Made by a program: the position numbers and the translations under genes
The notes under the pieces: generated by a model
What the model saw: the letters and a program-made list of their open reading frames with translations, nothing else
What the model was told of the DNA's origin: nothing
The model's database searches: none
Origin: Agelas oroides
Lineage: Eukaryota; Porifera; Demospongiae; Agelasida; Agelasidae
Direction: 5' to 3'
Length of the DNA stretch: 64,000 nt
Assembly (NCBI GenBank): GCA_949130485.1
Contig: OX422195.1
Span: forward strand, 7,892,922 to 7,956,921
Shown: positions 35,980 to 63,640 of the stretch, piece after piece
How positions within the stretch are numbered: the stretch's first letter is position 1
Layout of the letters: each line of letters begins with the position of its first letter

Positions 35980-38900
35980 CTAATAGTACAGTAGCACCTC
36001 ACGCACCCGAAACTGTAAGCAATCGTCTTTCAAATACTGTGTAGAATCTGATTCTTCGCTGAGTTTAAGGTAGGAAATGAAATTAGTTTTTCCCCATCCA
36101 TGGTTTTTTTCACCAATTAGTACTCTATCAGCATAGTCAAGATAATCTGGCCCTATGCTCTTGTTGTATGAGAGGGTATACGCATAATGACCATCAGATT
36201 CTGCTTTCTGGTTCAGGAGCTCTACTGTGATTTTCCCATGAAATGGCCATGACAGCTCATTGTCGTATTCTCCTTTCATGATACATGTAAACAGTGACAC
36301 AAAGTTGCTATCTCGAAGACCATTGGCATCAATTCGGACACATATTCTGTATCCCCGCGAATGAGTATAGAATGGTTCACTGTACCACGTTATATCATTC
36401 TCCCTGTGATGTTTGAACTTGTCCATTGTGAAGTAAAAGTGGACTTGATGTAGGTGCGGTGTTGGCTTGGTGTCTTGCTTTAGCTGTGCTATTTCTTTAT
36501 CCTTCTCCACTATTTCTTTATCCTTGCTCTGCAGTAGCGCAGAGATTTCTTTCATCTTATGGGTGACACTTGCCATTTCTTCATCTTTACTTTGAAGTTG
36601 TAAAGTGAACTCTTCTTGCATCTGTTGGATGGTGCATGCTGTTTCTTCCTCTGTCATCCGTAGCTTCACGGTAAGTTCATCTATTTCTCTTCCTTGTTCC
36701 TCAACTTTCTCAGTGAGAAGTTCATTGTGGTGGGGTTGTTCTTCTTCCATGTGAGCTATCATGTCTTTGCGAGGCATTAGAGCATTACAGCCAACATAGC
36801 TAAACTTACAATGAATGTCAGCATACTCACAGCCACTGGAGGGATCGTCACAGTTGAGGTGACTGTCAAGTTTTCCCAGTTCTCCTGTCCATATACAGCC
36901 TCTTTCCTGGTATGTGCATCGAACTTGCAATTGATTGAGAGACCGCTGTAACTTCTTGTCATAAAAGGTGGAGAAATCTGTACAATTACACATTGGGCAT
37001 GACTTCATTTGTGTTTGGACTGGTTCAATACATGTTTCACAGAAGATATGGCCACAACAGTCTGTTTGCTTGGGTTTGCGGAGTACATCATGACAAATGG
37101 GGCACTTTGTTTCAAGAGCCTCTGGGGGAGGGTCAACAAACTCACAGTCATAGCCACCAGGTTCAGCGGGAAGAACTTTGCTTGATGAGTCCGAGTCAAA
37201 TGTGTGCTGACTGGTTTTACTGGTGCTTTGGTAGTCTGCCTGACCTAGTTTGGAGGGCTCATCCTGCATGCAAGGAAAAGTATAAATTGCATGCACACAT
37301 GCACGGGATCCAAAATTTAATGACTAAAACAATTATGTCCATACTTTTGATGCCACGAGATGTCTCTTTGGAGGAGGTTGGTCTGTCTCCAGGTCTTCTT
37401 CCAACTTCCTTTTTCTGTGCACTTGAGGAACCTGTATAAGTTTGTGTGTGTGTGTGTGTGTGTGGGGGGGGGGGGGGGGGGGGTTAAGTCCATGGGCTCA
37501 TTGTAAAATAAAGGCAGGCTCTCGTTTAGCCAAAGTTGTGTACAGTAGTTATGTTAATCATCTATGTTTAGCTAACATATTCAACATGAGCTATAAATAG
37601 ATATAAACAGGTGTTCCAGACATTTGTCTCCAGAGTTACTACATTGTGGTAATGGAGAGTGTTGGTAGAATAACACATGCAGCTGCTGACTTGCATACTT
37701 ACTGATGTACTTTCATTCTCTTCATAAACACACTGGTCCCCCACTTTCAATTTCAGGATATGATGCTTCTGGAAAAAGTGGGTGTCAATTTTAGCTATCT
37801 TGACTAGCTGTGGAATCAGTTTTGATGGAATAAGCCATGTGATGGAGACACACCCTTTGCGAACTCGCTCAAGCAAAGCTGTGGGCGGGGAGTCAGGTAA
37901 AAGATAGTGGCTGGAGAACATTTCCCATACCTCAGCAAGATATTGGAGGGAGTGATTGACAAATGCTTCATCAGTCTTCCATTCCACCTGAGTACAGTAG
38001 CGAGGATCATCCTTGGCTTTCTCTGCTGAAGAATGAGCAGCAGAAGCATCACACTCAGGTTCAATGCAATTTTCAACTGTTGTTACAAGTTGATATGATC
38101 TCAGATCATTCTTATAGATTTGGATCCATCCCTTCATCTCAGGATCACCGGCACCAAATATTCGGACAATTCGCACAAGTGGAGAATAGTGCCAATAATC
38201 CCACAGGCGATGTTGGGTAATGGCCTTAAAGATTTCTATCAAATTGGCCGGAGGTGGAGGGATGCAATATCCTGGAGGGAACTGATTTGTCACAAACAGC
38301 CGAAACTGTTCGACATCAACTCCGTTCTTGAACAGCTTGTTGCACACCTTTGTTTGGAAATCTGCAAATTTGTCCTTGATGGCTTGTCGATTCTCACAGA
38401 TGAAAACGGCAGATTTACTCCATTTTTCTTTGGGAGAAGCTGCAAAAAATAACATTAGCCAATTTACTTATTTACTATTCTCTTCTATATATGTAGTCAG
38501 GAATACAGTTAAAAGCAACAGTGGGTGAAAAATTGTTAAAAGTAGTTTTGTACGCAGGCATTCACCCAAGAATTGTCACTTGCAATATCAAGAGTGAAGG
38601 AGGTTAATTGGCAAATCCAGACCCCAAAACAGTCTTTTGTCTGGATGGTACTCACTTTGCACAAGGGCTAGAAAACAAAATGCCTTTATGTAGATGTCGA
38701 GCTGATGTGAGTGATGTCCCTGTATATGTCACTGTATGTGATTAATTGTACCCCTGCACTGTAAGCAACAAACACTGGCCAGGGGTGAAGGGCTGGATGC
38801 AAGGTTAAATTTATGGTAAATAATTTACAACTACAAGCCACAACAGATCCATGAAGTTCATGTGTATGTATATATATCATAACTTGAAACAGTAATTACT

Positions 38901-61983: not shown

Positions 61984-63640
61984 CAACAGAGAAGACGAGC
62001 ACCTCACTAAGTGCTGATACTCCTGCAAGTTTGATAACCTTCAAACACAAGGTATGTAAGTAATGACCACCATGATGTTATAGCCTAATCAGTAGAGGAA
62101 TGCAGTAATGGCTGCACGATTTAGTTCATCTTGGACTAATTAAATAGACAGAGAATTTAGAGTTTTGTTGCTACTGGAGATAACTTTTTATGAGTACAAT
62201 GGCTATAAATAGTCTTTCAGTGGCTTCTCAACTCAAGTTGGTAACAGATAACCTTCTTATAAGTTCATTGTGCAAGTATGAAATTTTATTAGTCTGCTAG
62301 AGCGAAAATTCAGACCAAATATTGGTCAGGTGCTCTTACCAACTAAGCTACAGAGCTCTGGCATTGAAGCAGAGGATATATTCATAGATACAGTTTGATT
62401 TAAGTCCTGGCTAGATCTCGGTCTTTATCAACAAATAACCAAACTTAGCTAGCTATGTTAACAAGCTAATTCTACATCAGGTACAGGACAGTTTCGGTTG
62501 ATGGAAGCTTGAGGCTATGCATATAATATTCATTATTGCATCTTTTCACAGACATTTTTCTTGTTGCAGCTTCTTCTACACTCCACAGCTCAGAGGGAAA
62601 ATGGATGACTGTCGACATGCAAGTCTCCCCTTACCATTATTTCAACAGCTAGCTGATTAGCTAGATACCATACTAGCTACAGCTAGGTTGTAATACCACC
62701 TGTAGAGTTAGGGAAGAAATGCTCATGTTGAATTTTGCAGCAGTTAAGCTAGTACCCTATGGAATGTACTAGGTCAGAACGTTTTAGCTTTTAATTAACC
62801 AACTAACAAGCTTAGCTACATAGTATACTTGAAGGTTCACTAGCAGAGCTTTGATAAGTCCAAGTTTGGAGTAAGTCAGCCATTCAGTTTGAATGTGAGT
62901 TTGGTCTTTTCACCATATGCTTGTGCTGAGAACCATGGTGCAGCGGAGTAATATGAAGTCAAACAGAACTCTGGTGGACTTCATAAAGAAATCATCTTTC
63001 GCAGTCTTTCAAATAGACTTAATCGCCTGTCTTTAAGCAAAAGTAACGGGCCTTACTTTTATATTTTGCAACGTTATACCCAGGTTCAACAGACTTCTGC
63101 TTGAAGATGTATGATCTGATCAATCAGTAGTACTTATCATGTTACCTTTTTATTATTTTCTGCATAGCCACCAAAAAATCCACTTCCCGGCACTGAACCA
63201 CCAATAGATTGTCCAGAACCACCAATAGATTGTCCAGAACCACCAATAGATTGTCCAGAACCACCGATAGATTCTCGAGATTGTCCTGAACCGGACCCAG
63301 ATAGTCCTGAACCGGATCCAGATAGTCCTGAACCGGACCCAGATAGTCCTGACTCTAGCTGAAGTAAGTATTACAGAATGTGTATGAGGATAATTCTTGT
63401 ATACTTTTTGTTTAATAATTGTGGGTAGCGGAATTAAGAATTGGTGATATGTCATAATCATATGGCCTAAAATCACATGAACACAGTAGAAGTGCTTTGC
63501 AGCAGCTGATAATGTCAGTAATGTTTTCTCTCTATCAGGCTACATCCATGACATGGCAGACTTTGAAGCAGTAGCTATAGTGTGCTTATTATACGCCTTG
63601 ACTGTAGAGGAGCATTAGTTTTATATGACTTTTTTTTTTA
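61975..63640 (+). CDS. Small repeat-peptide gene C (family not recognised; possibly impaired splicing)
   Basis: Exon 1 ends at 62051 (AACACAAG, donor GTATGT). Exon 2 begins at 62580 with ATG GAT GAC at 62601. The repeat exon is 63168-63363, and the last exon starts at 63539. The repeat exon is open for 64 codons to TGA (63360-63362) just before GTAAGT, with three EPPIDCP, one EPPIDSRDCP and three EPDPDSP units. Pro/Asp/Glu-rich, acidic, unlike the Lys-rich gene B. At the place where A and B have GAG|GTATGT, C reads GACTGTCGAC, so the start exon cannot join the repeat exon in frame by a normal donor. The repeat exon may use another start, or the gene may be damaged. Confidence 0.45.

Follow-up and report, generated by a model that had tools for sequence, protein, structure and literature searches.

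A tandem array of Death-domain/RING/TRAF-MATH genes and divergent small repeat-peptide genes in the sponge Agelas oroides

Metazoan immunity proteins that combine a Death-like domain, a TRADD-N domain and variable C-terminal domains, MATH among them, have been described by Kaur et al. (2021, PMC8195603); passages of that paper also report 357 NCOA6-clade proteins in Amphimedon and a TRADD-N turn made up of a tiny residue and a Ser or Cys. Among nematode toxin-antidote elements, the antidotes KSS-1 and KSS-2 belong to the F-box proteins, and ZEEL-1 is similar to a CUL2 substrate receptor (PMC12680543). Here we describe a 64,000-nucleotide stretch of the Agelas oroides genome (contig OX422195.1, here C13; C13:7892922-7956921, referred to as the window, with position 1 as its first letter), in which three minus-strand TRAF-type genes, the partner genes, alternate with three plus-strand small genes that carry a hypervariable repeat exon. 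Among open-licence full texts, we found no paper on such a gene pair.

Our preferred reading, which we hold tentatively, is that tandem amplification has multiplied a divergent gene pair with a part in invertebrate immunity or cell death, in which the small peptide may serve as an intracellular effector or bait and the neighbouring adaptor may respond to it or control it. The partner gene resembles the Death-like and TRADD-N proteins in its order of parts (a Death domain followed by a junctional middle domain and by C-terminal domains that vary) and in its large lineage-specific expansion, with the 357 Amphimedon proteins on one side and at least 121 middle-domain matches on the other. It differs from them in its RING-TRAF-MATH tail and its linked small-peptide gene, which are not described in those passages of PMC8195603, and in a middle domain that the Pfam TRADD-N model fails to detect. 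With the TRAF family, it shares a RING and a MATH domain above cut-off, in one exon that also gives a weak zf-TRAF match, but the predicted gene has Death-domain and middle-domain exons upstream of these.

Domains of the partner genes

Each of the three minus-strand genes in the window encodes a RING, a weak zf-TRAF match, a coil (assigned by eye) and a MATH domain within a single exon, as determined with Pfam. These exons lie at 35980..37323 in unit 1 (TRAF-mep_MATH 1.1e-23, zf-C3HC4_2 1e-7), 48023..49267 in unit 2 (MATH 2.4e-24, RING 5.9e-10) and 55687..56970 in unit 3 (MATH 1.3e-22, RING 3.9e-10), the MATH E-values thus spanning 1.3e-22 to 2.4e-24. Both RING and MATH exceeded their curated cut-offs in all three genes, a combination that fits the TRAF family, while the zf-TRAF scores of 17.6-22.1 bits fell below the cut-off of 27. 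The Death domain surpassed its Pfam cut-off of 22.6 bits in units 2 and 3, with 30.3 and 33.9 bits, respectively (minus-strand exons 50975..51352, 4.7e-7, and 58618..59019, 3.4e-8). A sequence-only reading of this DNA had claimed three Death-domain/RING/TRAF-MATH genes; the RING and MATH parts of that claim stand for all three, and the Death domain for units 2 and 3, but unit 1 offers only a by-eye candidate. This tentative Death domain, of a different type, would occupy the minus-strand exons 39128-39361 and 39922-40212 within 39128-40212, and the one stretch submitted to Pfam, 39922-40212, gave no match at E<=0.01. The immune and cell-death character that had been assigned to the domain set is supported. 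We also predict a first coding exon for unit 2 at 51490..51535 on the minus strand (MAGCSDPEFVLSEDQ), whose end is similar in units 2, 4 and 5 and whose start region is similar in units 2, 3 and 5.

The middle domain corresponds to an exon of ~250 amino acids (aa) that, judging by exon order and predicted splicing, falls between the Death-domain exon and the RING-MATH exon. It is located on the minus strand at 37706..38416 in unit 1 (aligned with 26 paralogues; no Pfam match), 49908..50639 in unit 2 (supported by paralogue alignment and genome matches) and 57456..58202 in unit 3 (92% identity with unit 7). The genome holds at least 121 matches to it, some of which are pieces of one exon. A Gly-Cys pair (G195, C196) is almost invariant among 27 aligned middle domains, ahead of a strand-like stretch (strands assigned by eye), suggesting a domain that is TRADD-N-like in position and turn motif only. 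We label it TRADD-N-like and no further because no profile search matched it to TRADD-N. None of three PDB matches at E<=10 was a TRADD chain, and a six-frame search with the TRADD-N profile gave no match, but neither did its controls. When six middle-domain genes were traced downstream, one, on contig C6, had a RING-MATH match, four matched the RING part only and one matched neither. Since only one of the six carried RING-MATH, membership of the partner type need not extend to most middle-domain genes.

The ratio of nonsynonymous to synonymous divergence (dN/dS) was below 1 for every domain pair with measurable synonymous divergence (dS): 0.13-0.54 for MATH and, between units, 0.24-0.48 for the RING and zinc finger and 0.33-0.87 for the Death domain. 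The RING-MATH exon as a whole gave 0.20-0.40 between units, at dS 0.43-1.9. Purifying selection acts on the partner genes. Their parts seem to have separate histories: units 3 and 7 differ at dS 0.105 in the middle domain, compared to 0.65 in MATH and 0.94 in the RING part, and the middle domains of units 5 and 6 are 26-32% identical to those of other units. These values point to a mosaic partner gene, probably produced by exon shuffling or conversion among the partner genes of the window (35980-58202) and of C13 units 3, 5, 6 and 7. Units 6 and 7 also contain an additional partial RING or MATH copy beside the main one (C13:7977779-7981541 and 8006880-8008637).

Layout and distribution of the array

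We searched the conserved block found upstream of each small gene, in three versions and as DNA, through the 259-Mb genome in 141 contigs, a search in which a miss is no proof of absence. Each version gave 17 matches, which merged into 14 places on C13 (7.936-8.014 Mb) and copies on contig C20 (3.265-3.310 Mb), the latter being two complete copies and one split into two inverted pieces. Local tblastn and blastn maps of C13 revealed seven partner genes, U1-U7, to the right of each of which lies a full block (B1-B7) in the opposite orientation. Between B6 and U7 there are also seven half blocks (h1-h7), spaced ~1.5 kb and uninterrupted by partner exons; beyond the last C13 block, up to 8.026 Mb, the same searches found no partner match. 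The array therefore extends past the window, and both the repeated co-linkage and the expansion by tandem duplication that had been proposed from three units are borne out by seven pairs and seven solo small genes on C13 and by the diverged C20 cluster.

The sequence-only reading had placed each TRAF gene to the left of its plus-strand small gene. The position is correct, but the relation is head to head, each C13 TRAF gene pointing away from the small gene at its right. Because genes and blocks alternate, every small gene is also convergent with the next TRAF gene to its right; the array, however, opens with a TRAF gene and closes with a small gene, so the head-to-head pair is the complete unit in seven of seven cases. 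A unit spacing of ~9.1 kb had also been proposed, and this describes the plus-strand blocks (at 43418, 52466 and 61596, spaced 9048 and 9130 bp) but not the TRAF exons of the three window units, which are 12.0 and 7.7 kb apart.

The same divergent layout is seen for the two complete blocks of C20 (2/2), each facing away from a RING-MATH exon on the other strand at a distance of 6-8 kb. The orientation of the third block is ambiguous because the copy is split and rearranged; its halves, at C20:3309815-3310332, are in opposite orientation. The C20 blocks are 81-83% identical to those of C13 and the RING-MATH pieces 34-50% identical. Matches to the small-gene block were confined to these two TRAF clusters in the whole-genome DNA searches.

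RING-MATH sequences are more widespread, with at least 149 matches in the genome. A cluster on C6 combines middle-domain matches with RING-MATH exons, and, of two upstream gaps retrieved there, one contained a Death domain. Partner-protein matches, chiefly to the MATH part, are dense in C10:650160-790284. Three of them are duplicated, with equal scores and at a constant offset, between C55:80-7929 and C10:694680-702529, so that C55 is perhaps an alternative haplotype contig.

The conserved block and the small gene

The block is ~310 bp long and 94-99% identical among the seven C13 units (plus strand; 43352..43663 for B1, 52419..52711 for B2 and 61546..61841 for B3); the h copies match its right half only. 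Over the same 21 C13 pairs, identity is 56-82% in the next 268 alignment columns, which span the promoter and exon 1, and in B1-B5 the coding exon drops to 0.23-0.32 (50-base bins), equal to the flank level. This contrast between block and coding exon upholds the earlier description of the small gene as fast-changing. The claim that the small genes are homologous holds for the upstream block, 5' untranslated region (UTR), start exon and splice sites, but the coding exon is no more alike than its flanks. The block is more conserved than the synonymous sites of its neighbours (the RING-MATH dS values given above), which implies strong constraint or repeated gene conversion, either of which would be sufficient.

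All nine block copies contain CCAAT, followed downstream by TGACGTA[AG] in seven and by CCACGTCA in five (B1-B5); a strict TATA pattern occurs in four of the nine. The first three of these elements may be NF-Y, cAMP response element-like and unfolded-protein-response-like sites, a naming that is provisional. The predicted start on the TATA side of the small gene is ~0.4 kb past the block start, and in units 2-5 the partner gene appears to have a start region of its own, 0.8-2.3 kb from that same point. Given this distance, the block is best read as a control region of the small gene. We rejected the block as coding sequence, since stops interrupt all six frames of the block core in every one of nine copies. 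An RNA gene in the block was not supported, with fold z-scores of -1.03 to 0.04 (four half-block folds of the B1 copy). Rfam, at gathering scores, gave no match in the window.

Our model of the small gene has four exons: a 5' UTR exon, an exon whose end coincides with the ATG or comes just after it, the hypervariable repeat exon and a final one. In the C13 copies, exon 1 ends in ACACAAG before GTA, or in a close variant; exon 2 of the h copies, B6 and B7 typically ends in AAAGAAAATG before GTATGT, and the exon 3 acceptor is typically TATAG or CACAG. The upstream part is intact at 16 loci, 14 of them on C13 and 2 on C20. At all of these except h7 (15/16), an ATG is present at the end of exon 2 or within 10 nucleotides (nt) of it, and an in-frame model could be built for 14 of the 16 (12 on C13 and both on C20). 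Additional small genes on C3 were considered and dismissed: the exon-2 pattern, with up to two mismatches, occurred at 18 places versus 8 for the reversed control, its six exact occurrences all fell in the C13 array, and three one-mismatch places on C3 (2.2148, 2.2353 and 2.3241 Mb) are near-identical copies of an unrelated sequence without a block and thus chance. That verdict was drawn from these three places, the remaining nine having two mismatches.

Two of the three window copies, all on the plus strand, have intact models. B1 (39 aa) has its 5' UTR exon at 43772..43863 (start approximate, from a TATA-like site; donor AACACAAG before GTAA), exon 2 at 44194..44230 (ending ATGATTGAG before GTATGT), exon 3 with NEQGTK repeats at 44554..44668, where the stop directly precedes the donor, and the 3' UTR start of exon 4 at 44911..44960, placed by eye from an acceptor and a GCTGCA/GCTACA start that are similar in B1, B3 and B5. 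In B2 (37 aa), the coding part of exon 2 is ATGCCTGAG (53196..53204), exon 3 encodes GTKKDT repeats (53483..53591) and the 3' UTR start of exon 4, also placed by eye, is at 54090..54140. B3 may be broken, because the GT donor that follows its ATG (start codon region 62601..62610) is out of phase with the 64-codon repeat frame and would leave a 12-aa product. Its exon 3 (63168..63363) has an open frame with PEPPIDC/PEPDPDS repeats that is not in the ATG frame, and its exon 4 would start, by eye, at 63539..63600 with 3' UTR.

The predicted products vary widely. B4 would encode TTTKPPI repeats, B5 a proline-rich and B7 a glycine-rich product, and h1 a hydrophobic tail. The products of h4-h6 have Gly/Thr-rich fronts and hydrophobic tails with GxxxGxxxG-like spacing, ending in IIGWFKG, VVGWVKH and IVGWFRS, and the two C20 products, Cx1 and Cx2, end in CVIM and CIIL, C-terminal CaaX sequences (2 of 14 models) that would predict prenylation. 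The hydrophilic repeat peptides of the sequence-only reading are therefore an apt description of B1 and B2 but not of the several copies with hydrophobic glycine-rich tails or of the two with CaaX ends. When six peptides were scanned against the Pfam Gly-zipper models PF13441 and PF13488, h6 alone matched (2.6e-5 and 3.2e-5, below the curated cut-offs), and h4 and h5 gave no match; we consider this a low-complexity resemblance of h6 to these bacterial families and claim no homology.

Elsewhere in the window, a dispersed family of ~270-nt repeats is represented at 29860-30131, 39425-39696 and 45122-45393 (91-92% identical to one another), with weaker copies at 15964-16211 and 25889-26132 and a related inverted stretch at 28518-28621. 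A 13-base tandem array of ~30 copies occupies 24001-24388. The neighbouring genes encode TANGO6-type domains (4793-10099, minus strand), a KN homeobox (31157-32023, plus strand) and pieces of a TrmE-type GTPase (33413-34925, minus strand).

Possible roles of the pair

The account that we tentatively favour would work as follows. The partner gene would encode a cytosolic Death domain/TRADD-N-like/RING/TRAF-MATH adaptor of ubiquitin-ligase type, and the four-exon small gene, once transcribed, spliced and translated, a very small intracellular peptide, with a conserved control block and a repeat exon that keeps its frame while diverging freely. A stress or infection input acting through the block would most likely switch the small gene on. 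The peptide would then be an effector or bait inside the cell, directed to membranes in several copies, as their hydrophobic glycine-rich tails or CaaX ends suggest, and the neighbouring adaptor would respond to the peptide, or to the state that it creates, or would control it by ubiquitylation, presumably through contact between the two products. The paired sensor and effector of the sequence-only reading are plausible in these terms.

A number of results weigh against this account, and we present them together with the alternatives that they would fit. The middle domain does not strengthen the link to described immunity proteins, as Pfam TRADD-N (PF13820) matched none of the 27 middle domains at E<=1. 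More fundamentally, the repeat exon may not be coding: the block would then be an enhancer or promoter, the open reading frames of the repeat exon would be incidental to triplet-rich minisatellites, and the output would be RNA or nothing. We judge this improbable, and the evidence is divided. The block is far better conserved than the exon; the proportions of nonsynonymous and synonymous differences (pN and pS) are about equal in the six pairs among h4-h7, which gives no indication that the peptide sequence itself is under selection; and in six of 12 models (B1, B2, B4, B5, B7 and h3) an exon 3 phase other than that of the ATG is open longer. Triplet repeats can hold a frame by themselves, and the exon 3 repeat periods in the window (18, 18, 21 and 21) are all multiples of three, units that are self-maintaining in this respect, while arrays elsewhere in the window are of both kinds. 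B3 and h7, the latter lacking an ATG, have no intact model, and the tails of B6 and h3 are frame-shifted.

Against a non-coding locus stands the way in which these copies keep frame. The ATG lies at or just before the exon end at nearly every locus, and the junctions are in phase: for the five C13 copies that have an ATG and continue into exon 4, the length of exon 3 is divisible by three (114, 63, 153, 240 and 168 nt), and the two C20 copies, with 49 and 25 nt and a phase-1 junction, keep the frame as well. Of the 31 GGTAC repeat cores in the 12 C13 models, 27 share the frame of the ATG (the exceptions being three in B6 and one in h3), and the first core is in frame in all nine copies that have one, more than chance would give, although these are not nine independent events because the copies are related. 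In several copies, the stop lies at or directly before the donor. Finally, both CaaX ends on C20 retain their class despite changes at five of the nine bases of the aaX codons after the Cys, and none of 500 shuffles yielded two such ends; because Cx1 and Cx2 are homologous, they count as one case.

If the peptides exist, they may have no tie to their neighbours. The strongest rival, and a distinct possibility in our judgement, makes the small gene a passenger: it would encode a low-complexity peptide of stress type, evolve fast and independently, and be carried within a duplicated segment while having no functional tie to the TRAF gene. The two genes are not always paired: h1-h7 have multiplied without partner genes, and the two C6 upstream gaps contained no block at E<=1 in an nhmmer search with a block profile, a run that recovered the C20 places at <=6.4e-56 (two of the C20 copies were in the profile, the rearranged one was not). 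The partner type thus occurs without a recognisable block. Linkage by descent from tandem duplication would explain the pairing without any functional bond, and an alternating array gives every small gene TRAF neighbours on both sides, whatever its function. A passenger would also fit the separate start region predicted for the partner gene, which makes it unlikely that the block is a shared core promoter of both genes (a bidirectional pair of that kind would have start sites no more than ~1 kb apart), and the absence from the 14 peptides of TRAF2- and TRAF6-type motifs (PxQxT, PxQxxD, [PSAT]x[QE]E and PxExx(aromatic/acidic)). A SPOP-like motif had three matches, all in B4, which did not exceed shuffles (80/500). 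What a passenger would not readily explain is that block matches were found only in the two TRAF clusters, and that the divergent layout persists on C20 despite the divergence of both block and RING-MATH pieces noted above.

Two further alternatives would bind the genes together in other ways. A selfish element of toxin-antidote type, in which a small hydrophobic peptide would do harm and be cleared by the RING-MATH ligase linked to it, is quite unlikely. The likeness to the nematode elements is a small, fast-evolving and here partly hydrophobic product linked to an E3-type gene, and the nematode antidotes resemble ubiquitin-ligase substrate receptors (PMC12680543). The Agelas locus differs from them in its multicopy array and Death domain; seven of its small genes lack partners, both intact window products are hydrophilic, and a Death domain suggests signalling over disposal. 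Least probable of all, and to be given hardly any weight, is a linked ligand/receptor locus for self/non-self recognition, in which the hypervariable peptide would be the label and the MATH protein its reader. Hypervariability beside a protein-binding domain would suit such a locus, but by eye we saw no hydrophobic signal-like N terminus in the small-gene models, MATH has a low dN/dS, and the peptides lack the TRAF-type motifs.

Returning to the divergent immune pair that we favour, we regard its fullest form as rather doubtful: a previously undescribed two-gene immune module in which the small gene, inducible through a control block that stays frozen while its repeat exon runs free, supplies ever-new intracellular peptides, some of them membrane-anchored, which the divergent Death-domain/RING/MATH ligase would read or dispose of, and in which the pair is copied as a unit. 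If the two genes do cooperate, they would represent a new layout in animal innate immunity, in which a conserved control region drives a freely varying peptide that is tied to a death-domain ubiquitin ligase, and this would bear on how an early-branching animal uses TRAF and death-domain signalling. Even if the small gene is a passenger, the locus offers a clean and extreme case of a non-coding block that is conserved next to a coding exon that diverges, and natural material for testing how new short proteins may originate from in-frame repeats.

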